Shown here one piece after another: positions 30,870-41,544 of a stretch of DNA of 64,000 nt. Every line of letters starts with the position of its first letter. The first letter of the stretch is position 1. The stretch is taken from assembly GCA_029262005.1 (NCBI GenBank), contig JAJDAG010000003.1:1-64000 (forward strand). Reading direction: 5' to 3'. The position numbers and the translations under genes are program-made. The DNA comes from Candidatus Zhuqueibacterota bacterium (GTDB taxonomy: Bacteria; Zhuqueibacterota; Zhuqueibacteria; Oceanimicrobiales; Oceanimicrobiaceae). The notes below the pieces were generated by a model. It was not told the DNA's origin. It saw only the letters and a program-made list of their open reading frames with translations, and did not search any database.

Positions 30870-32057
30870 CTACTGCCCTTTCGCCTCTAAGCGATTCTCT
30901 AAATACTGATACAGATCTTTGGTTTTTTTCAGATAAACCTCATAGCTGTATTTTTCCTCGGCAAGTGCCGCAGCATTTTTCGTGATTTTTCGACTTAGTT
31001 CTGCATCCCGAACAACAGACAACACCCCCTGACCAAAAGCCTCGGCAGTGCAGTCAGTTAACACGGAGACGTCCGGATTTAGAACCTGGGTATGCGTCAA
31101 ATGAGCAGTCGCAACAATGGGCTTGCCCGAGCGCAAATATGAGTAAATTTTAAGTGGTGTGTTATTTCCCTGCAATCGCGGGGAAACCAGAAGGTCTGAT
31201 GCTTCAATATATGCGGGCACCTCTTCCGGTGCAACAGAACCGGTAAAAACAAAATGGCCGCCAACCTGCAAATGCTCGGCCTTGTCACGGTAGTGGGCAA
31301 TTTGTTCAGGCTTGCCACCAACCAGAACAAACCTTACACGCGGCTCTTTCTTTACCACGCTTACGCTGGCTTCAATGAGCATATCAAGGCCTTGATACGG
31401 TTCAAATGTGCCGGCATACAAAACAGCTATTTCACCATTTGTTTTAACGGTTTTCTGAATTGATTCAACATCAACCTCTTTCTTAAACACCAAACTATTA
31501 TCTGCAACGTTCTCAATCAGGCAATTGTGTTTTTCCGGGAAGACACCTTTTACATATTCATACAACTCAGGGCAAATGGTTATTACTGCTTCGGCGCTAT
31601 TAATGGTGTAGGCTTCCAGCCTCTCAAAAAGCCGGTTCAGAAAACCAGATTTTGAAAATTGGAAGTTAGCCAATTGCTGCGGCAAACTCGAATGCATATC
31701 ATAAAGGTGCAAAATCCCATGCTTTCCGGCAAAATATGCAGCCCAGAAACCAGCCTCTTCATGTGAATGAATCAGATGGTACTGATTCCGACGCAAGAGA
31801 GTAATGGTTTTCATGAGCATCACCAAATCCAACACGATCTTACTTTTTGATGGACCGATTGCGATGTTATTAATGAAAGGAACGCGGGCAATACGATGAA
31901 TGCTAACACCCTCAATTGCTACATCCTCACCAATATGGTAAGTCAGCAAATCTATTTTGTGCCCAAGTCTGGATAAGGCCTTGAGCCGATGCAACACGCT
32001 AAAAGGCGTACCACGTGGCTGAAAAAAAGGCTGGGGGGCAATCATTAACACTCGCAT
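30870..32057 (-). CDS. Glycosyltransferase family 4
   Basis: A GT-B glycosyltransferase of about 395 residues. The N-terminus reads MRVLMIAPQPFFQPRGTPFS, a common start for capsule GT4 enzymes, with a conserved R-G-T-P loop. The C-terminal donor domain contains LYAGTFEPYQGLDMLIEAS, and the NTPLKIYSYLRSGKPIVAT region carries the conserved nucleotide-sugar contacts. I start it at the ATG at 32057, preceded by GGGATGG; the open frame extends 28 codons further upstream without family similarity. It is 4 bases from asnB, and 353 bases of non-coding DNA lie before it, so it may head its own transcript. Confidence 0.86.
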   Translation of the reverse strand: MRVLMIAPQPFFQPRGTPFSVLHRLKALSRLGHKIDLLTYHIGEDVAIEGVSIHRIARVPFINNIAIGPSKSKIVLDLVMLMKTITLLRRNQYHLIHSHEEAGFWAAYFAGKHGILHLYDMHSSLPQQLANFQFSKSGFLNRLFERLEAYTINSAEAVITICPELYEYVKGVFPEKHNCLIENVADNSLVFKKEVDVESIQKTVKTNGEIAVLYAGTFEPYQGLDMLIEASVSVVKKEPRVRFVLVGGKPEQIAHYRDKAEHLQVGGHFVFTGSVAPEEVPAYIEASDLLVSPRLQGNNTPLKIYSYLRSGKPIVATAHLTHTQVLNPDVSVLTDCTAEAFGQGVLSVVRDAELSRKITKNAAALAEEKYSYEVYLKKTKDLYQYLENRLEAKGQ

Positions 32058-32383
32058 AAAGAAACCATCCCTGTCAAAGTGGTTAAGCTCAAATCTCAGC
32101 TCCAAAAGTCGACACCGGTATTTATCGACTCGAAGTTGCAACTAGGAAATGAATCGGTTGTAAGATAATTTCCTTTAGCAATATTAGTGCCACTGAGATT
32201 GGTGCTATCCGACAAAACATGATGAAACTCATACATGTTTTCATTAAACTTAAGACTCTTGTCTATCGCTAACACATGACAATTCATGTTCCAGTTTGAA
32301 ACGTTGTTATGAACTGACACAACCGGATAGCAAGATATTGCGACTTGCTTTCTGTGATAAAATTGGAGAACTGGTGCAGTATC
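32058..32383. other. Non-coding leader upstream of the GT4 gene
   Basis: About 330 bases between the predicted terminator at 32384 and the GT4 start hold no gene I can support. The only minus-strand frame of any size (74 codons, GTG at 32320 to 32096) has no ribosome site and no recognisable motif. It probably carries a promoter for the GT4-asnB-methyltransferase-glpD run, but no convincing -35/-10 pair or known riboswitch was found. Confidence 0.4.
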
Positions 32384-32421
32384 AAAAAAGAGGCGAGGCC
32401 CAAGGTTGGTTAACTCGCGCC
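32384..32421 (-). terminator. Possible rho-independent terminator at the sugar-transferase stop
   Basis: On the minus strand GGCGCGAG (32421-32414) can pair with CTCGCC (32397-32392) leaving a two-base bulge, about 16 bases of loop, and then TCTTTTTT. The hairpin straddles the stop codon at 32410, so translating ribosomes could interfere with it. The stem is short, hence moderate confidence. Confidence 0.4.
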
Positions 32422-33867
32422 GTAACCAAACAAGACTACAAAAATCGTCTTAAACAGAATTTTAATATCGAGCCAAAGCGACCAATGGTCAATATATTCA
32501 AGATCCATCTCCATCCATTTCTCAAACTGAATCGTATTTCTGCCACTGACTTGCCAGATACAAGTCAGTCCAGGTTTCAAGCTCAAACGCCGCCGTTGCC
32601 ACATCTTGTACAACTCCACTTCCACGGGAAGCGGGGGCCGCGGGCCAACAATACTCATATCGCCTTTAAGCACGTTAATCAATTGTGGAATCTCGTCAAT
32701 ACTAAATTTTCTCAGAATTCGCCCGACGGATGTAATCCGCGGGTCTTTCTTTATCTTGAAGACCGGGCCTTCCATTTCATTCATTTTATCAAGCTCACGT
32801 TTTTTCATTTCCGCGCCAACAATCATAGTACGAAACTTGAAAAGCTGAAACTTACGACCATTCAAACCGGAGCGGATCTGCGAAAACAAAACCGGCCCCT
32901 TGGAGGATGTTTTTACACTGATAACCGCGACCAGAATGAGCGGAACAAATACAATCAACAAGATGATGGACAACACAATATCGATGGTACGCTTCAGAAA
33001 CAATTGCCACTGTTTCGCTGAAAACGTCTCAAACTCCAGCAAAGGAAATCCGCTGAAATCAGTCTGGCGCACCTTGGCAATCCGTAAATTATATAAATCC
33101 ATGGAAATGGAGGTACTAATCCCTTCTCGCTCGCAGGCCAAAATTGCATCATCAATTCTGTTCAGCCACAACCTCGGCACTACAAAAATAACCCGGTCAA
33201 CAACAATTCTATGTAAAATGAACGGTATATCCTGCAACCGTCCCAGCACACGAAAACCTTCTATTTCTTTACCGTACATACCATGTTCATCATCAATCAA
33301 GCCGACTATCTTCAGGCCCCAATTAGCATGATTTTTCACAACTTTAATAAAGTCCCGCGCACGTTTACCCGTTCCAACGATCAAAATATTTACCTGATTA
33401 TACCCTTGCGAGTGAATATAATCGAAAAATTTGTTCTGCAGCAATTTGGCCAGCATGAGCAGAGCAATGGTTATACCAGAATTAATGCCGATGAACAAAC
33501 GGCTCGTTAAAGTAAGCTTGAAAAGAAAAATAAGACTACCAAAGCCAAGCGTTGCGAACGCAGCGGCAGTCAGGATGGTTGCAGATTCCCGGGCAAATGT
33601 ACGGGTGCGAATATCCTTATAGGAACCCAGTGCAGATAGGAGCAATAACCAGATAGGAATGCTGGAGACAACAATAATTACATTCTTCTGAGCAAAATAA
33701 AACAGGCCATAGAGATTTGGTGAGATGGCATACGCCATTTCACCAAGCGCGTAAATATCACGGATGTAGAACGTAATAAAGTACGAGCCCACAAACGAAA
33801 TAACAATACACAGCGAATCAACGACCTTGGCAACGCTGCCGAGGAAAGCTTCTTTTTCCTTAACCAT
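32410..33867 (-). CDS. Polyprenyl-phosphate sugar-1-phosphate transferase (WbaP/WcaJ type)
   Basis: A 485-residue protein with four N-terminal membrane helices, a CoA-binding-like Rossmann region (about 160-285, VNILIVGTGKRARDF) and a C-terminal Bac_transf domain (about 290-485). That last part has the phosphoglycosyltransferase signature: a single hydrophobic re-entrant helix, then FKFRTM, DPRIT and SIDEIPQLINVLKGDMSIVG followed by PRP. The enzyme moves hexose-1-phosphate from a UDP-sugar to undecaprenyl phosphate, beginning each repeat unit. It lies directly after the UDP-uronate epimerase (30-base gap), in the same transcript as the Wzc and Wza-like genes. The sugar is likely glucose, galactose or a related hexose. 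Confidence 0.93.
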   Translation of the reverse strand: MVKEKEAFLGSVAKVVDSLCIVISFVGSYFITFYIRDIYALGEMAYAISPNLYGLFYFAQKNVIIVVSSIPIWLLLLSALGSYKDIRTRTFARESATILTAAAFATLGFGSLIFLFKLTLTSRLFIGINSGITIALLMLAKLLQNKFFDYIHSQGYNQVNILIVGTGKRARDFIKVVKNHANWGLKIVGLIDDEHGMYGKEIEGFRVLGRLQDIPFILHRIVVDRVIFVVPRLWLNRIDDAILACEREGISTSISMDLYNLRIAKVRQTDFSGFPLLEFETFSAKQWQLFLKRTIDIVLSIILLIVFVPLILVAVISVKTSSKGPVLFSQIRSGLNGRKFQLFKFRTMIVGAEMKKRELDKMNEMEGPVFKIKKDPRITSVGRILRKFSIDEIPQLINVLKGDMSIVGPRPPLPVEVELYKMWQRRRLSLKPGLTCIWQVSGRNTIQFEKWMEMDLEYIDHWSLWLDIKILFKTIFVVLFGYGAS

Positions 33868-33897: not shown

Positions 33898-34860
33898 TTA
33901 CTTCAGCATATCTGCCATTTCGGTGTACCAGCGAACAAACTTTTCGATCCCCTGTTGAATGTCTACACGCGGCTGGTAGCCAATTTCCCTCTGGGGCCGG
34001 GAAATATCAGCGTAAGTAATCGGGACATCCCCAGGTTGCTTCGGTAACCGCTCGATCTGGGCTTTCTTGCCAACACAATTAGAGATGAGGTCTATTAACT
34101 CGAGTAGCTCAATCGTTTTGGATTCACCCAGATTATATATATGGTAATCATGGCAATGCTCAATTGATTTACAAATGCCATCAATAATATCAGTAATGTA
34201 AGTAAAGTCACGCCTGGAGGTACCATCTCCAAACATTGGAATTTTTTCACCTTTGAATATGCTGCGTGTAAATTTGTGTATCGCCATGTCAGGGCGTTGT
34301 CGCGGTCCATAAACTGTAAAAAAACGCAAGCATGTCACCGGGAGTTGATATAAATGAGAATAGGTATAACAGAGCAGCTCGCCCGCTTTTTTTGTAGCAG
34401 CATAAGGAGAAATCGGGTTATCGACGAAATCATCTTCGCTAAATGGGAGCTTCTCATTTTCACCATACACAGAAGAAGAAGAGGCAAAAATAAATTTTTG
34501 AACACCAAAGTCTTTTGCAATTTCCAAAAGATTGCTCGTGCCCTCAACATTGACCTTTTGATAAAGCAAAGGCTGCTGAATAGATGGCCGAACGCCGGCC
34601 CTCGCTGCGAGGTGAATCAACACATCAATTTTGTTTTTTTTGAAATAGTCGCGCAAAAAATTAAGATTGAGGATCTCGTTTTCAACAAGCTCGTAGTTTT
34701 TATTACTGAGCAACGATTCGATATTTCCTCGTTTTATGGCTGGGCTGTAGTAATCGTTGAAATTATCCAACGCAACAACCTCATGACCCTGGTGTAGTAA
34801 AGTCTCACTGAGATGTGAGCCGATGAAACCGGCCCCGCCTGTTATTAGTATTTTCTGCAT
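33898..34860 (-). CDS. UDP-glucuronate 4-epimerase-like SDR
   Basis: A 320-residue extended SDR. NAD-binding TGGAGFIGSHL is at 7-17 and the catalytic Tyr-x3-Lys is in SPYAATKK. The sequence DNFNDYYSPAIKR near residues 36-48 is characteristic of the UDP-glucuronate 4-epimerase (GAE) branch, as is RFFTVYGPRQRPDMA. It would interconvert UDP-glucuronate and UDP-galacturonate in the cytoplasm. A UDP-N-acetylglucosaminuronate epimerase (WbpP-like) activity is a close alternative. It follows the Wzc-like gene by 38 bases and precedes the sugar transferase by 30, within the same operon. Confidence 0.85.
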   Translation of the reverse strand: MQKILITGGAGFIGSHLSETLLHQGHEVVALDNFNDYYSPAIKRGNIESLLSNKNYELVENEILNLNFLRDYFKKNKIDVLIHLAARAGVRPSIQQPLLYQKVNVEGTSNLLEIAKDFGVQKFIFASSSSVYGENEKLPFSEDDFVDNPISPYAATKKAGELLCYTYSHLYQLPVTCLRFFTVYGPRQRPDMAIHKFTRSIFKGEKIPMFGDGTSRRDFTYITDIIDGICKSIEHCHDYHIYNLGESKTIELLELIDLISNCVGKKAQIERLPKQPGDVPITYADISRPQREIGYQPRVDIQQGIEKFVRWYTEMADMLK

Positions 34861-34898: not shown

Positions 34899-37238
34899 TT
34901 AATAGTGATAATAGCTGTAACCCGGGTGCGCCATATCGGCAGTGGTGCCATTTAAAATTGCACCCAGCAACTTTGCCGGCACACTTGAAAATAATTCTAA
35001 TTTAGATTTGGCCAGTGCGCGCTGTGTTTTTCCTGCCCGAAGCACAAGCACGACAGCATCGACTTGTGTACCGACAACAATGGCATCGGTAGCGGCATTT
35101 AGCGGCGGCGTATCGAACACAATTAAATCGTATTTACGTCTCACTTCGTCCAGGAATCGTTGCATCTGGTGGGACCCCAACAACTCGGATGGATTAGGGA
35201 TCAGTGAGCCACAACTAATCACTGACAAATTAGGAATTTGTGTTTCATGAATAATTTTGTGCAATGGTACAACATCTGTTAAGTAATTACTGAAGCCAGG
35301 CTCCTTTGGCACGCCAAATGTATTGTGCAAAACACCCCGGCGTAAATCACTATCAATGAGCAAAGTACTACTCTTTAATTGCGCTAGTGCAATAGTCAGG
35401 TTTGCGGCAGTGAATGATTTACCATCACCCGGTTCATTGCTTGTTAGTGCAAACGAACGGATACGCCCGGTATCTTTGGTAAACATAAGATTAGTGCGCA
35501 AAGAACGATATGCCTCACCGATGGGCGTTGGCGCATAATCATGGGTCACCAACTGCTGGTCAATCTTTTTGATTTTTTCAGAATCTTGAAAATCGTAAGT
35601 GTCTTCAAAGTCAATTTGGGGAATAGTGCCAAGTATGGGCAGCCGTAAGTAGTGTTTGACATCATCGGCAGTTTTAATGGTTTTGTCCATAAACTCAATC
35701 ACCAAAACCAGGCCAATACCCATGAAAAGACCAAAAATTCCGCCAAATGCCGCTTTCTGTTTTTTATCCCGATTTGTTGGATATTCAGGAGGAATGGCGT
35801 TGTCCAGAATTTTAATATTTTCGACGACTGCGGCTTTTGACACTTGTTCTCTACCGTGCTTGGCGTTTAACTCTTTGTATTGGCTTTCAAGCATACTGTG
35901 TTCACGGCTGAGCTGGTCAAATTCCAACTGCTGGGCAGGCAACCGCCGCAACTGCGCATCCAGTGTAGCGATTTCTCGACGCTTGAGTGACAGTTCTGCT
36001 TCAAATTTAGCAATGCCCTGTCTGGCAAGACGCTCTACCTGACTATGAACTTTTAATATTTCTTGCAACTTTCTTTTAGCTCTAAAGTTTTGCGGGGAAG
36101 TTCCATTGGCAATATCAGCCCATTCTCTCTCGCGGGTTTGCAGTTCATCCCTGACTACGAGCATAGCCGCATTGTTGTCAAACGCCGCATGCCCGGCGAG
36201 CTGATTGACAATAAAACGTACAGTCGTCCTTCTGTTGGGATCGGCACCAACTGGATTATCAGTCTGCTGAACTTTCTGTATAAGAAGATCATTTAAAGTT
36301 CGCACAACATCTTCGACATCATCCCGCTCCCGCTCAAGCGCTGTTTTGTCATTTTCCTTCTGTTTCAGATCAGCTTCAAAATTAACACCATGGCGCTCTT
36401 TGAACGTTTTGAGTTCAAGATCAGAGTCAGCGAGTTTTTCTTTAGCCTGCTGGAGCTGCTTCTCCAGAATGTCTCGACGGCCGGCTTCAAGGTCACCGGA
36501 AGTACCGGTACTCTGTGCAATAAAAAGTGTCGCCAGCCGGTTGGTCATCTCAGCGACCACCATTGGATCAGTGTCTGTGAGTCGCAAGTCCATCAGTGTG
36601 CCTGAGCGATCCTCCCATTCCACATCAACACGTGCCTGAAATGATTCAACGGCGCTGCGAAAATTAATTACATTAAAGACAATCACCGACGGTAAATTAA
36701 AAAAATCCTCCACAAGTTGAAAACCAATACCGTTGACTTCGCACAGCCCTGTCACAACATCCTGCACATAACCGGTTTTAATAACCTTCTCCTCGCCTGA
36801 AACAGGTTCCTTTCGCGTAAGTTGGTAAGTCTGGTCTTTTGCAAAACGTAACGTGTATTGACCACTTGTTGGCCTTTGGTCGGTTTGAAACCGGGCAAAT
36901 ATTTTACTGCGATTAATAAACTGATCGCCCTGATTCTCCACACGAAGTGCAAGTCCTAATTGAGCCACAACCTTCTCGGCAAAGGAACGGCTGGTGAGTT
37001 CAAGAGTCCTGGCTTGAGCCAAACCCACATCACTGCCGCTATAATTTTTAAATTGGATACGGGCTTGTGCCTCATAGATTGGCGGTTGTTGTTTGAGATA
37101 CCAAAACCACGGAATGGTGACCACAACCATAACCAAGATAATCAGCCACCACCGTTTTACCAACGCTCGATAATAACGTCTTAGGTCTAGTTTCTCAACC
37201 TCACCGCTTTCTCCATCATCCAGAAAGTAAGACTCCAT
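34899..37238 (-). CDS. Wzc-like polysaccharide co-polymerase with BY-kinase domain
   Basis: A 779-residue inner-membrane protein with the Wzz-GNVR-BY-kinase layout. A first membrane helix lies at about 29-48, then a long periplasmic region rich in coiled coil (about 200-480), a second helix near 510-530, and a cytoplasmic tyrosine-kinase domain. That domain has Walker A EPGDGKS ending at S608, Walker A' LLIDSDLRR around D629, and Walker B LIVFDTPP around D709. The last residues, GYSYYHY, are the tyrosine cluster that is autophosphorylated. It controls polymer length and export together with the Wza-like protein. ATG at 37238 was chosen over a TTG nine codons upstream because GAGG precedes it. 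Confidence 0.93.
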   Translation of the reverse strand: MESYFLDDGESGEVEKLDLRRYYRALVKRWWLIILVMVVVTIPWFWYLKQQPPIYEAQARIQFKNYSGSDVGLAQARTLELTSRSFAEKVVAQLGLALRVENQGDQFINRSKIFARFQTDQRPTSGQYTLRFAKDQTYQLTRKEPVSGEEKVIKTGYVQDVVTGLCEVNGIGFQLVEDFFNLPSVIVFNVINFRSAVESFQARVDVEWEDRSGTLMDLRLTDTDPMVVAEMTNRLATLFIAQSTGTSGDLEAGRRDILEKQLQQAKEKLADSDLELKTFKERHGVNFEADLKQKENDKTALERERDDVEDVVRTLNDLLIQKVQQTDNPVGADPNRRTTVRFIVNQLAGHAAFDNNAAMLVVRDELQTREREWADIANGTSPQNFRAKRKLQEILKVHSQVERLARQGIAKFEAELSLKRREIATLDAQLRRLPAQQLEFDQLSREHSMLESQYKELNAKHGREQVSKAAVVENIKILDNAIPPEYPTNRDKKQKAAFGGIFGLFMGIGLVLVIEFMDKTIKTADDVKHYLRLPILGTIPQIDFEDTYDFQDSEKIKKIDQQLVTHDYAPTPIGEAYRSLRTNLMFTKDTGRIRSFALTSNEPGDGKSFTAANLTIALAQLKSSTLLIDSDLRRGVLHNTFGVPKEPGFSNYLTDVVPLHKIIHETQIPNLSVISCGSLIPNPSELLGSHQMQRFLDEVRRKYDLIVFDTPPLNAATDAIVVGTQVDAVVLVLRAGKTQRALAKSKLELFSSVPAKLLGAILNGTTADMAHPGYSYYHY

Positions 37239-37279
37239 AGCCTCAGGTACTCCTAAAATACTCAAAATTGCGTTAAATG

Positions 37280-37978
37280 CTACTTGCTGATTTTTGTGAT
37301 TACGAGATACAGGTTAAGCAGGGAAAGTCCGAACCTGAGTATTTCAAATGCGTCCTTCATTCTGAACTGTTTTCTTACTGGAAGTATCAGTTGATCCCCC
37401 GTTCGGATGCCAAGCTCCTGCAACGTGAAAGCCTTTTCAAAGCCGCCAAGCAAGTCTTTTCTGATGGTACGACCACTTCGCTCTATAAACATTTTGCGTA
37501 AATTACTATCATCGTCAGGCCCACCCGCTTTATCCACAAGGGCCCACAATGAAGCATCCGGCGGAATCAGATAGGTGCCCGGACGCCTGAAAGCACCAAG
37601 CAAAGCAACTCTGATTAAGGGTTCAACAATAATGATAGGGTCTTGTATGTAGGCATTAAATTTTTCTGTAAGTTCAGCGGCAAGCGTTTTTGTATTATGA
37701 GAAACAACTTTGATCTCTCCGATAAGCGGGAGAAAAACAAAACCACCGCTATCAATTAGATAGTCACCATCAATGTCAAGGCCTGAATCCTTTTTATCCC
37801 CAACCTGCCAGGGCTGCCAAATAGTAAGTCTAATCGCGTCACCTCGATTAAAGCGCTTACTAAATGATTGTGGCGAAGACATTAGATGCCGGGAGGAAGG
37901 CAGAAGCAGCAAACACAGCAGAGTAAGCACGGAAACAACTGTGCGAATCAACCGTCCCTGATTGAGAGTACTTTTCAT
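37280..37978 (-). CDS. Polysaccharide export protein (Wza/Poly_export and SLBB domains)
   Basis: A 232-residue protein. An N-terminal hydrophobic segment (10-28) could be a signal peptide or anchor. Residues about 43-125 form a Poly_export domain (FNRGDAIRLTIW, FVFLPLIGEIKV) and about 125-200 an SLBB-like domain (VALLGAFRRPGTYLI). A hydrophobic helix ends the protein at about 210-230. It is much shorter than Wza and no lipobox cysteine follows the signal, so it may not form a full octameric outer-membrane pore by itself. It immediately precedes the Wzc-like gene (41-base gap to its ATG) and probably links that kinase to the export path. Confidence 0.87.
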   Translation of the reverse strand: MKSTLNQGRLIRTVVSVLTLLCLLLLPSSRHLMSSPQSFSKRFNRGDAIRLTIWQPWQVGDKKDSGLDIDGDYLIDSGGFVFLPLIGEIKVVSHNTKTLAAELTEKFNAYIQDPIIIVEPLIRVALLGAFRRPGTYLIPPDASLWALVDKAGGPDDDSNLRKMFIERSGRTIRKDLLGGFEKAFTLQELGIRTGDQLILPVRKQFRMKDAFEILRFGLSLLNLYLVITKISK

Positions 37979-38024: not shown

Positions 38025-38738
38025 TCACCTCGAACGATAAAAACGATATCGTTTTTCCTTGTTATCCAAATTCAACTTTCTTAACAAGCCGTAGAGCTTG
38101 AATATGTTCACTCTGGTATTGCCGAAATTCGCCTGCCGCAAGGTTTTTTGGATTTTGAAAACACCTCGCCTTGGATCCTCAGTGACTGCAATCTTCACTT
38201 TTTCTGCAAGAGGTAAAAGGCGCGGCTCAATCTTTCTCCTTTTTCCGCTGGTGTATCCGGAACGAGGCAACTGGGAAGGTCGCTCAACAGGTATTTGGGC
38301 AACCGCAGTTGCAGCCTTAGTAGGTTGAGCAGCCACAGGGTTGTAAGTGCGTTTGGTGCTTCTGGTTATGTCCAGGCCAATTGAAATATCAAAATCATTA
38401 ATCGCTTCTTCGATAGACTCATAGTAACTGAGGATGCGATTAAATTCCAACATTTCAAACACATCATAAACCTCAGGTGTCATCTGCACGATCTTTAAAT
38501 CACCACCACGTTCTCGAATTCCCTTTATTTCCCCAACAAATACGCCCCAGCCGGCACTACTTACATAATTAACATGAGCCATGTCAACAATGATATGCAA
38601 CAGGCCTGCACTCAGGTTCTCCGTAATTTTGTTAAGCAAAATCGAGCAGGTCATCGTATCAACATAACCCTTCACCATCAACATGGCGATGTCGCGCCTG
38701 GCCCCGACCTTACCTTGAGTTATTTCAATACCTTCCAT
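38025..38738 (-). CDS. STAS-domain protein with C-terminal helix-turn-helix-like extension
   Basis: A 237-residue protein. Residues 1-120 are a STAS (anti-anti-sigma, SpoIIAA-like) domain: MVKGYVDTMT at its start, and YVSSAGWGVFVGE at 58-70 where SpoIIAA-type proteins have the phosphorylated serine in a DSSG context. The middle (125-170) is Pro/Ala/Thr-rich linker. Residues about 172-237 are strongly basic: EDPRRGVFKIQKTLR, then NIFKLYGLLRKLNL and a KRYRFYRSR tail. This resembles the winged/helix-turn-helix domain of IS3-type transposases (the pattern DPRRG...L...R.Y.LLR..GL). It is the first gene of the exopolysaccharide transcript, 46 bases before the export gene. Function by inference: a phospho-switchable regulator. 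Confidence 0.85.
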   Translation of the reverse strand: MEGIEITQGKVGARRDIAMLMVKGYVDTMTCSILLNKITENLSAGLLHIIVDMAHVNYVSSAGWGVFVGEIKGIRERGGDLKIVQMTPEVYDVFEMLEFNRILSYYESIEEAINDFDISIGLDITRSTKRTYNPVAAQPTKAATAVAQIPVERPSQLPRSGYTSGKRRKIEPRLLPLAEKVKIAVTEDPRRGVFKIQKTLRQANFGNTRVNIFKLYGLLRKLNLDNKEKRYRFYRSR

Positions 38739-38769: not shown

Positions 38770-38819
38770 ATGTAAGCTCCGGTGATTTACAAATTCTGTG
38801 CCACATATGTAAGCTTCGG
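38770..38819 (-). repeat. Direct repeat ATGTAAGCTYCGG flanking the STAS promoter
   Basis: Two copies of a 13-base motif lie at 38770-38782 and 38807-38819 on the plus strand, with 12 of 13 bases identical and starts 37 bases apart. Between them lies the sigma-54-like element. The outer bases also form a 6-base inverted pair (GCTCCG/CGGAGC). It could be an operator for a regulator of the polysaccharide transcript. Confidence 0.5.
38788..38803 (-). promoter_or_regulatory. Sigma-54-like promoter upstream of the STAS gene
   Basis: The minus strand reads TGGCACAGAATTTGTA. The -24 element TGGCAC is a perfect match and the spacing to the -12 element is right, but that element is TTGT instead of TTGC. 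Predicted transcription would begin about 38-40 bases before the STAS ATG at 38738. No sigma-54 activator gene lies in the window. Confidence 0.45.
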
Positions 38820-38962
38820 AGCAAAAACGAAATGCATGAGTAATTCCACTATTTTCACCCAGACAGGCACAAGAGTCCGCATTACCAACCCTTGAAGAGC
38901 CAAACCAATCATGTGTTAGGTCGAAACAATGTGTATATTTGATACAGCAAAGTGATACAGCC

Positions 38963-39045: not shown

Positions 39046-40509
39046 CTATTTTCTCGAACCCTTGTTATTCATTAATTGACTATAAAGCGCGTGATATGCC
39101 TCTCCCGGCTCGCTCCATGAGAGTTCTCTGCTCATGGCATTTTTTGTTAGAGTAAGCCAGGCGTCTTTATTCTCATAAACCGAAACAGCCTCTGCAAGAG
39201 TTGCAACCATTTCTTTTGAGTCAACGTTTGGACACAAAAAGCCCGTGCCGGTGCCTGACTCAACATTAAACTGTTGAGTGCAGTGTCCCGCTGCCTCTGA
39301 GAATGCTATTGGAATGGCCCCATAAAGTTGGCCATACATTTGACTCAACCCTGACGGCTCAGTTGTTAAAGGCATCAAAAGCAAATCACTGCCAGCCGTA
39401 ATTAAATGTGTCAGTTTGTGATCCACTTTCCAATCTGTTCCAATCTTGGCCGGGTACTTGTCCCGGAAGGCCTCGATTTTGTCCTTATTAATGAGATCAG
39501 ACGTTCCTGCAATGATTAACCGAACATTCAATTCTACAATATCTTCAATGGCAGACAAAAGAAAATCGACCGCGGGACCATCTTTTTCACCCAATATCAC
39601 ACCGACAATGGGCAGATCATTGCTCTCGGTAAGTTCAAAGTGAGCTAACAATTCACGTTTATTTTCCTGTTTCCCTGACAAATCGTCCAAAGTGTAATTG
39701 GCGGCAATGAGCTTATCAGTTCCCGAATTCCAGACCTGAGTATCCACCCCGGATTGAATGACACCCAGGCTCTCAAGGGCAGAGCCGATACCGGGAGCAG
39801 GAAATTTCATTGAGCAGGCGGATGAGACGTTCGCCAAATCTGCATACGCAAGTCCAGCGCGAAGAAAGTTAAATTTATTGTCACTGACAATGTCATTATC
39901 TGCTCCGAGCACGGACTCCTGGATGCCAGTAAGTTTAATCACCGAAGAATCAAACAGGCCACATCGCATAGGGTTGTGAAAGGAAAGCAAAGTTTTTGTG
40001 CCTTTGAAGAATGGATCTTCTGCGTAGACAGTTTTGAGCAAGGTTGGGATTAGTGCCGTTTGCCAATCATTGCAATGAATAACATCAGGCTGCCAGTACA
40101 ATAATTTCAGAGTCTCCAGACAACCTATTGAAAAGAAAATGAACCGCTTGGCATTTTCGGCATATTGTGCCCCTGCTGTCGAATCGCAGTGCATGTCTTC
40201 ACCATTAAACAATTCTCGATTGCTCAGAAAGTAAATTTGCACCTTTGAATTGGGAATAAATGCAGACTTACCGCTTGCCTCAATCACCTCATCCCCGATA
40301 TCAATCTTAAGTCCTTGCAATCGGATGACATCCCGCAGCACATATTTGCGTTCATTAACTGAGCGATAATTTGGCATCATCACTCTAATATCATGCCCTT
40401 GCGATTTCAGATATTTAGGAAGTGCACTTGAGGCATCGGATAAATTTGTACTTGGGCTAAAGGGGAAGACCTCGGGTGTAATATAGAATATTTTCATATT
40501 GGCTTTCAT
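39046..40509 (-). CDS. Glycogen/starch-synthase-like protein with altered donor-binding motifs
   Basis: A 487-residue GT5-family protein, about the length of GlgA (477). The N-terminal catalytic domain (glycogen-synthase type) shows ITPEVFPF, HCNDWQTALIPTLL, a conserved catalytic-region His in LSFHNPM, and SGVDTQVWN. The C-terminal domain carries the conserved glutamate in TEPSGLSQMYGQLYG. The hallmark K-T-G-G-L loop that binds ADP-glucose is P19-S-T-N-L23, so the lysine is lost, and the C-terminal TGGL is EAAG. It may use another donor, or be a non-catalytic relative. It follows galT by 30 bases and ends in a strong terminator, so these two form a short transcript. Confidence 0.82.
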   Translation of the reverse strand: MKANMKIFYITPEVFPFSPSTNLSDASSALPKYLKSQGHDIRVMMPNYRSVNERKYVLRDVIRLQGLKIDIGDEVIEASGKSAFIPNSKVQIYFLSNRELFNGEDMHCDSTAGAQYAENAKRFIFFSIGCLETLKLLYWQPDVIHCNDWQTALIPTLLKTVYAEDPFFKGTKTLLSFHNPMRCGLFDSSVIKLTGIQESVLGADNDIVSDNKFNFLRAGLAYADLANVSSACSMKFPAPGIGSALESLGVIQSGVDTQVWNSGTDKLIAANYTLDDLSGKQENKRELLAHFELTESNDLPIVGVILGEKDGPAVDFLLSAIEDIVELNVRLIIAGTSDLINKDKIEAFRDKYPAKIGTDWKVDHKLTHLITAGSDLLLMPLTTEPSGLSQMYGQLYGAIPIAFSEAAGHCTQQFNVESGTGTGFLCPNVDSKEMVATLAEAVSVYENKDAWLTLTKNAMSRELSWSEPGEAYHALYSQLMNNKGSRK

Positions 40510-40539: not shown

Positions 40540-41544
40540 TTACGCCATAGTGGCGGCCCTAAGTTCCTCGGCGGCAAGTTCAGGAGGGGTAGAATTGATA
40601 TAAAATCCAGACCCCCACTCAAACCCAGCGATTTTTGTCAACTTGGGAATTATTTCTAAATGCCAATGGTACTCTACCTTCTCTCCACCTTGAATCGGCG
40701 AAGAATGTAGCATAAAATTGTAGGGAGGACAACCTAACACCTGATTAATGCGCCCCAAAGTTTCTTTTAGCACCTCGGCCAACTCGAAATACAGGTTATC
40801 CGCCATCTCTTCGTAATGCGAAAAATGGTGTTTAGGCAGAATCCATGTTTCAAAAGGGAACCTCGGTGCGAACGGCTCAATAGCAATATACGACTCGCTG
40901 AGCAGGACGATGCGCTGGCCCGCATCCTGTTCTTGTTGAATCAAATCGCAGAAGATACAACGCCCTTTCAGATCAAAGAAACACTTACTTCCCTCAAGCT
41001 CTTCAATAACGCGCTTTGGAATAATAGGCGTTGCAATTAACTGAGAATGAGAATGTTCTAATGATGCGCCAGCCGCAGAGCCATGATTCTTAAAAATCAG
41101 CACATAGCGAAACCTGGGATCTCTTTTTAAATCAAGCGTTCTATCACGAAAAGTGAGCAGCACGTTGCAAATTTGCTCGACTGTGAGATCCGCCAAGTCT
41201 TTGGAATGGCTTGGGGTTTCAATTATCACTTCATGTGCCCCGATTCCTTGCATCATGTCATAATTCCCAAAGCCCTTTGGTTCAAGCTCACCTTCGATCT
41301 GAAGAGCAGGAAACTTGTTCGGGACAACCCTTACATCCCAACCCGGCCCATTCGGAAGCAGACCTACCGGTCTATGGGCCATTATTTCCGGTGGTGTTTT
41401 TTTTTCATTTCCATGACAAAAGGGACAGACCCCACCTCCTCCTTTAAGAATGGACTCCTGCCGCCAATCCATCGGCCTTTCACCACGCTCAGTGGAGATA
41501 ATAACCCACCTACCGACAATTGGATCTTTCCTTAATTCGGACAT
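40540..41544 (-). CDS. galT: Galactose-1-phosphate uridylyltransferase
   Basis: A 334-residue GalT (E. coli: 348). The N-terminus LRKDPIVGRWVIIS is typical, C40-x2-C43 in CPFCHG binds zinc, and the active-site H164-S-H166-S-Q168 motif carries the nucleophilic histidine that forms the uridylyl-enzyme intermediate. It interconverts UDP-glucose plus galactose-1-phosphate with glucose-1-phosphate plus UDP-galactose. Galactose kinase and epimerase genes are not in the window. The ATG is taken although no strong ribosome site is seen. A terminator in the gap upstream suggests it starts its own transcript. Confidence 0.95.
   Translation of the reverse strand: MSELRKDPIVGRWVIISTERGERPMDWRQESILKGGGGVCPFCHGNEKKTPPEIMAHRPVGLLPNGPGWDVRVVPNKFPALQIEGELEPKGFGNYDMMQGIGAHEVIIETPSHSKDLADLTVEQICNVLLTFRDRTLDLKRDPRFRYVLIFKNHGSAAGASLEHSHSQLIATPIIPKRVIEELEGSKCFFDLKGRCIFCDLIQQEQDAGQRIVLLSESYIAIEPFAPRFPFETWILPKHHFSHYEEMADNLYFELAEVLKETLGRINQVLGCPPYNFMLHSSPIQGGEKVEYHWHLEIIPKLTKIAGFEWGSGFYINSTPPELAAEELRAATMA

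Follow-up and report, generated by a model that had tools for sequence, protein, structure and literature searches.

What does a STAS domain do when a single protein joins it to a basic tail resembling the helix-turn-helix (HTH) domain of IS3-type transposases, and when the gene stands at the head of an exopolysaccharide operon? This question is raised by a gene in the 64,000-nucleotide stretch of DNA that was analysed (the window). As originally predicted, an open reading frame occupies positions 38025-38738; it lies on the minus strand, with its ATG at 38738 and its stop codon at 38027-38025, and encodes a protein of 237 amino acids, which we call STAS_A. The plus strand of the same interval contains many stop codons. 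A chance reading frame or a frame error was rejected, as homologues conserve the protein including its tail; the start M-E/Q-G-I is common to them. The parts of the protein are as follows.

38025..38738, minus strand: STAS_A, a STAS domain, a disordered basic linker and an HTH_21-like tail (237 aa); predicted gene 1 of the exopolysaccharide transcription unit
38403..38699, minus strand: STAS domain (residues 14-112), PF01740; SpoIIAA/RsbV structures are the best fold match
38556..38558, minus strand: codon of Ser61, aligned with the phosphorylated Ser58 of SpoIIAA
38229..38378, minus strand: linker (residues 121-170), basic and mostly predicted to be disordered, with pLDDT <50 for residues 126-168
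38028..38228, minus strand: HTH_21-like tail (residues ~171-237), four helices, with the C-terminal end RFYRSR

The N-terminal STAS assignment proved sound. Residues 14-112 match the Pfam family PF01740 (E=1.2e-16; 60.8 bits, above the curated cut-off of 22.6) and the NCBIfam anti-sigma-factor-antagonist superfamily TIGR00377 (60.3 bits, above the cut-off of 53.45), and the SpoIIAA equivalog model TIGR02886 gives 50.8 bits, below its cut-off of 114.75. In a Foldseek search with the AlphaFold model of STAS_A, the STAS part is SpoIIAA-like (E 1e-8 to SpoIIAA). The original prediction had noted S-S-A-G at the phosphorylation site and suggested an altered switch. The motif stands, being identical in 33/33 type-A (STAS_A) and 19/19 type-B (paralogue STAS_B) proteins, with Ser61 invariant in 52/52; the altered or broken switch was rejected, since the motif is shared by the whole family and leaves the phosphorylated serine in place. 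Because Ser61 is invariant and aligns with SpoIIAA Ser58, S-S-A-G is no sign of a dead switch; judged from the alignment, it is a family-wide variant that keeps a phosphorylatable serine. No sigma or anti-sigma factor gene was found in the STAS_A neighbourhood, a PADLOC search gave no match for STAS_A, and none of the numerous RsbW-like HATPases of the window genome adjoins it.

The tail is predicted to be folded. In the AlphaFold model of full-length STAS_A, helices span residues 177-187, 193-200, 212-221 and 227-236; modelled alone with AF2, the tail is all-helical, with the same number of helices and a pLDDT of 88, and is not disordered. Foldseek matches to this second model are mostly winged-helix/HTH proteins (PadR, Fur, FapR, AhrC, Pax, an IS transposase), none of them significant alone; as no match fell below E 0.87, only the class of these matches was used. 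Searching PDB sequences with the tail gave chance matches only, and the CapS structures 9Z71-9Z73 were not among the matches in the PDB searches made.

A relationship to IS3 transposases is seen at the level of profiles. The STAS_A tail itself has no HTH_21 match in the Pfam scan, and the best STAS_A orthologue reaches 23.6 bits with HTH_21 (PF13276), below the cut-off of 28.1. Run over 40 genomes, the HTH_21 model picks out, besides kinase tails, the tails of STAS_A orthologues in G027 (3.6e-4), G014 (5.3e-4) and G019 (2.3e-3; values per genome). The tail profile, compared with an HTH_21 profile from IS3-type transposases of related genomes, gave a probability of 86% (E 4.8e-6) over 52 colinear columns, against <1% for all controls (six column-shuffled profiles and one STAS profile). 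Both domains are basic and share, colinearly, the pattern P.xG..KI..xL ... ..xVyrlLr..xL..K.KR; the STAS_A-family tail differs in having a three-residue insertion before the recognition helix and hydrophobic residues at the start of that helix. Much as had been proposed, sequence and model thus support a folded domain of HTH type with a distant relationship to HTH_21 of IS3 transposases. All 12 complete homologues compared at first have a conserved tail, which for this reason is not a product of chance; neither a disordered or unrelated C-terminus nor a lack of conservation, either of which would have spoken against the proposal, was observed. A Pfam hint of Toxin_YhaV (E 0.12 and 0.03) was itself taken as chance because it is below the cut-off and does not recur in those homologous tails that were scanned.

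Constraint and charge set the tail apart from the rest of the protein. P176, E179, P189, L200, G206, R230, R232, R235, S236 and R237 are invariant in 27/27 distinct type-A tails, and the RFYRSR end is found in 27/27 at nearly every position; type-B tails are without this end. The STAS domain is nevertheless conserved more strongly than the tail. In STAS_A the net charge is +13 for the tail, +7 for the linker and -8 for the STAS part, and among homologous tails it is +11 (median) in type A, +6 in type B and -3 in a related kinase tail described below, with +6 to +20 in IS3 HTH_21 domains. At positions 212-213, in the recognition helix, IS3 proteins have R/K and K/N, whereas nearly every A tail is hydrophobic there and the B tails have aromatic residues; the basic or polar residues with which the IS3 recognition helix begins are thus absent at 212-213 in both. 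In the kinase tail the recognition-helix positions that would contact DNA are acidic or small. The DNA- or RNA-binding role that had been proposed for the tail is not supported in its original form: where IS3 proteins have basic or polar residues, the STAS proteins have aromatic or aliphatic ones, and the tail of the kinase is acidic.

The tail is also far from being an oddity of a single strain, an idea we rejected upon finding it in 81 of the 82 phylum (KSB1-like) genomes, usually in three copies. Homologues of STAS_A occur in 60/60 relatives, most genomes having two paralogues. The usual three carriers of the tail are STAS_A, STAS_B and, beside STAS_B, a membrane kinase/phosphatase with RsbW-like and SpoIIE-like parts. 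This protein of ~1,250 aa precedes STAS_B and comprises an RsbW-like HATPase, two hydrophobic segments, HAMP, a SpoIIE phosphatase and TPRs; HATPase_c_2 (5e-29) and SpoIIE (7e-50) match strongly and HAMP weakly, and the active-site motifs are present. Its tail follows the SpoIIE domain, and comparison of the A-tail and kinase-tail profiles gives a probability of 97.7% (E 2e-12). The STAS_B locus often continues with obgE and dprA. These genome-wide statements rest on genome searches, and the STAS_B and kinase genes of the relatives were delimited by simple longest-ORF calling.

Searching the window genome with the tail profile yields no more than four proteins, namely the two STAS proteins (STAS_A and STAS_B), the C90 kinase and a second kinase/phosphatase, of 1,836 aa, on contig 39 (L183:4758-10268, minus strand), which carries a long acidic repeat region and TPRs. 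The latter is a possible partner of STAS_A. In the kinases (e.g. L087:7435-11196, minus strand) residues ~655-700, upstream of the tail, also weakly match HTH_28 / terminase small subunit, a further HTH signal because of which the kinase tail region resembles a two-part transposase DNA-binding module.

The genomic setting of STAS_A is equally well conserved. The features around the gene are the following.

40540..41544, minus strand: GalT-like nucleotidyltransferase, conserved upstream neighbour (PF01087 9.1e-16)
39046..40509, minus strand: glycogen/starch-synthase-like glycosyltransferase, conserved upstream neighbour (PF08323 3.8e-52)
38922..38946, minus strand: enhancer-like (UAS) site TGTATCAAATATACACATTGTTTCG, 118 bp upstream of the -24 element
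38788..38803, minus strand: sigma-54-type promoter TGGCACAGAATTTGTA, 49 bp before the STAS_A ATG, an exact match to TGGCAY-N5-TTGY
37280..37978, minus strand: Wza-type polysaccharide export protein (Poly_export and SLBB; PF02563 5.6e-11)
34899..37265, minus strand: Wzc-type chain-length protein / AAA_31 ATPase (PF02706 4.9e-11, AAA_31 9.7e-11)
33898..34860, minus strand: NAD-dependent sugar epimerase/dehydratase, from its translation; conserved cluster c5 in 29 loci
32410..33867, minus strand: initiating sugar transferase (WbaP-like), from its translation; conserved cluster c6
32297..32321, minus strand: second enhancer-like site TGTGTCAGTTCATAACAACGTTTCA, found at this place in five relatives too, 6-8 kb downstream from STAS_A
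32177..32192, minus strand: second sigma-54-type promoter TGGCACTAATATTGCT, before a glycosyltransferase gene (conserved ATG at 32057)

The type-A neighbourhood, pbp2-rodA-...-galT-glgA-STAS_A-wza-wzc-epimerase-sugar transferase, recurs in ~30 loci, in none of which a kinase gene adjoins STAS_A. The gap upstream of STAS_A has a median of 300 bp, compared with 49 bp between STAS_A and wza and 29 bp within the operon; together with the sigma-54-type promoter, this spacing supports the earlier placement of STAS_A as the first gene of a wza-wzc-epimerase-sugar transferase transcription unit. A third family within the phylum consists of long proteins (516-780 aa) with a STAS domain, a disordered stretch and a tail, encoded inside wza-wzz-wzc-epimerase clusters.

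A sigma-54-type score >=8 was found in 18/20 STAS_A loci, as against 18/165 upstream stretches of other genes in the same loci; a sigma-70 promoter scan found 2 where 2.1 were expected, that is, no more than chance. The enhancer-like site follows the pattern TGTNTCA-N7-ACANTGTTTCG, lies typically 70-120 bp upstream of the promoter in relatives and exceeds shuffled controls in most loci, including loci left out of matrix building. Given the sigma-54-type promoter, the enhancer-like site and the presence of rpoN in the window genome, the operon is probably sigma-54 driven with its own activator. The notion that the conserved upstream site is an operator of STAS_A itself was not supported, because the site recurs before other sigma-54-type promoters where no STAS gene follows, and an ordinary sigma-54 activator accounts for it without STAS_A.

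Sites of the same kind were seen elsewhere. In the window genome (L262:2917-3310, contig 69, the radA/hisS interval) an enhancer-like site and a sigma-54-type promoter are followed by no obvious protein gene; this block and its counterpart in a relative (G004, L266:4341-4765) are conserved and end in a long GC stem and a T run. By analogy with SypG driving Qrr1 (PMC10162802), the block is a candidate sigma-54-driven small RNA; it has no Rfam match, and its folding z-scores are not significant. In relatives (L264:1830-1854 and L265:6039-6063), a different polysaccharide cluster has enhancer-like sites between its flippase-like gene and asnB, with no sigma-54 match nearby.

Outside the phylum, the STAS_A tail profile matches 10/306 other sampled genomes, the tail searches covering 388 genomes in all. 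Wza/Wzz/Wzc operons accompany the tail there too. In one family (G154, G295) STAS_A directly precedes wza-wzc, and a separate locus holds a PorV-like gene (seen in G295), the kinase and STAS_B in a row; G377 has a tailed kinase, a ParA-like protein, a tailed STAS protein and Wza/Wzz genes in one row, and G217 encodes a two-tailed STAS protein in a Wza/Wzz cluster. One genome (G132) has a weak kinase-tail match only (1.6e-5, in a 345-aa frame). In G195 and G332, which have divergent tailed STAS proteins, no tailed kinase was found. In another phylum, a divergent STAS-tail protein of 196 aa is encoded between YbbR-like and PilB-like ATPase genes (L216:5770-6360 and L217:5282-5872); no tailed kinase was found for it.

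Described systems provide precedents for several of these traits. The combination of a STAS domain with a DNA-binding domain, originally put forward as unprecedented, is not: Chambers et al. (EMBO J 2026, PMC13373217) describe CapS, a repressor of STAS-wHTH build, and its GHKL kinase CapK, which controls it by phosphorylating a serine aligned with SpoIIAA Ser58. As in STAS_A, one and the same protein has a STAS domain with a serine at that place and, behind it, an HTH-class domain, and the gene heads the operon that it is presumed to control; CapK, like the tailed kinase/phosphatase, is a GHKL kinase that itself has an HTH. In CapS (184 aa) a MarR-like winged helix directly follows the STAS domain, whereas in STAS_A a predicted four-helix domain, by sequence closest to IS3 HTH_21, comes after a linker of ~50 aa. 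CapK is an HTH-STAS-GHKL protein encoded by the adjacent gene and is without a phosphatase, whereas the protein considered here is a membrane HATPase-HAMP-SpoIIE-HTH-TPR protein from another locus. Finally, CapKS controls immune operons, while STAS_A sits with exopolysaccharide genes in nearly all phylum genomes; no immune operon lies downstream of STAS_A, the genes there being wza, wzc, the epimerase and the sugar transferase.

The logic of the locus resembles that of the syp locus of Vibrio fischeri, in which the first gene encodes SypA, a single STAS domain that works without a tail (PMC4517449), the locus is sigma-54-driven with an enhancer, and one protein, SypE, both serine kinase and phosphatase, controls SypA (PMC4517449, PMC10162802). 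SypA governs a symbiosis biofilm, and its target was still unknown in PMC4517449 and PMC8256260. STAS_A appears, from its sequence, to share the position of SypA as first gene of a sigma-54-type polysaccharide operon, and the tailed kinase/phosphatase, which has both kinds of domain, would be the counterpart of SypE if it pairs with STAS_A. Unlike SypA, STAS_A has a 67-residue folded tail; SypE is a response regulator without a shared HTH, and the syp gene content differs. With SpoIIAA/RsbV, SpoIIAB/RsbW and SpoIIE/RsbU the present proteins share the STAS fold, the phospho-serine position and the GHKL kinase and PP2C phosphatase domains. SpoIIAA/RsbV, however, have DSSG and no tail, in contrast to SSAG and a tail in STAS_A, and kinase and phosphatase, separate in SpoIIAB/RsbW and SpoIIE/RsbU, are here fused in one membrane protein.

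Sequence, genomic setting and precedents suggest that STAS_A may be the phosphorylation-controlled output protein of a partner-switching system regulating exopolysaccharide, a reading to which we give an even chance. It is likely that the tailed membrane kinase/phosphatase, or its 1,836-aa paralogue, would phosphorylate and dephosphorylate Ser61; although neither adjoins STAS_A, the shared tail and the pairing with STAS_B point to this enzyme as setting the state of STAS_A. What is regulated would, with good probability, be how much polysaccharide is made or when, as with SypA/SypE. The polysaccharide link is backed by synteny over ~30 loci, recurrence in other phyla and the third, long STAS-HTH family in wza-wzz operons. 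As in CapS, the tail could be the effector and bind nucleic acid, its dimerisation or binding being governed by whether the STAS domain is phosphorylated; this step could equally well be right or wrong. STAS_A would then tune the sigma-54-driven operon, its own gene included, and the acidic kinase tail would be a docking or competing copy and not a DNA binder. Nucleic acid is favoured as the target because the tail is basic and its RFYRSR end invariant; an ordinary major-groove reading is argued against by the hydrophobic (A) or aromatic (B) residues at 212-213.

The same residues, together with the acidic kinase copy, favour docking of tail to tail. The transposase-like HTH would then be a module pairing basic STAS tails with the acidic kinase/phosphatase tail, with no DNA binding, and would give partner specificity among the cell's many STAS and RsbW-like proteins; as the whole explanation this is rather less likely than not. 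Consistent with it are the restriction of the tail to two STAS proteins and two kinase/phosphatases in the window genome, the complementary charges (A +11, B +6, kinase -3) and DNA-contact positions that are aromatic in STAS tails and acidic or small in the kinase. Moreover, among the 388 genomes searched, a tailed STAS protein accompanies the tailed kinase in all six genomes outside the phylum with a well-supported kinase tail, and the second tail of the two-tailed STAS protein fits the kinase-tail model far better than its first (2.5e-10 vs 1.5e-4). Yet docking as the only role predicts equal constraint, and the A tail has an end of its own that is absent in B; the two genomes with a divergent tailed STAS protein and no tailed kinase found also sit badly with it. 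Nucleic-acid binding and docking are not mutually exclusive. We find improbable a plain partner switch in which the STAS domain acts by binding another protein, be it an anti-sigma factor, a sigma-54 activator or part of the Wzc machinery, as is thought for SypA, and the tail serves only stability or location. The tail-less SypA does work at the head of the syp locus (PMC4517449), and the STAS domain is the more strongly conserved part of STAS_A; but the tail is kept in essentially every phylum genome and in other phyla, with invariant residues at its very end, and such constraint makes an accessory stretch unlikely.

A combined scheme can be offered as a tentative and rather doubtful proposal: a transposase-type HTH would have been turned into a recognition domain exclusive to one phospho-switch found throughout the phylum. 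The acidic kinase copy and the basic STAS copies would pair, and at the polysaccharide genes the STAS tail, once free, would then act on nucleic acid or on the transcription machinery at the sigma-54 operon.

CapS had already shown STAS joined to an HTH, and SypA a STAS gene opening a polysaccharide locus. What appears new is the HTH_21-like tail, common to enzyme and substrates, near-universal in the phylum and repeatedly linked to Wza/Wzc operons. To our knowledge, no described partner-switching system has one effector-type domain common to enzyme and substrates, and no paper describing such a tail shared by STAS proteins and a kinase was found in the open-access literature searched, itself a part of the whole literature. 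The locus would thus present a SypA-like logic (a sigma-54 polysaccharide operon, a STAS gene first, one kinase/phosphatase protein) with a visible effector-type domain, and since that domain is common to enzyme and substrate, the question of how STAS proteins outside the Bacillus sigma-factor systems exert their output becomes testable with small soluble domains. The union of STAS and HTH, known until now from defence islands (CapKS), may be a wider regulatory design, carried in nearly all sampled genomes of this phylum of uncultured bacteria.
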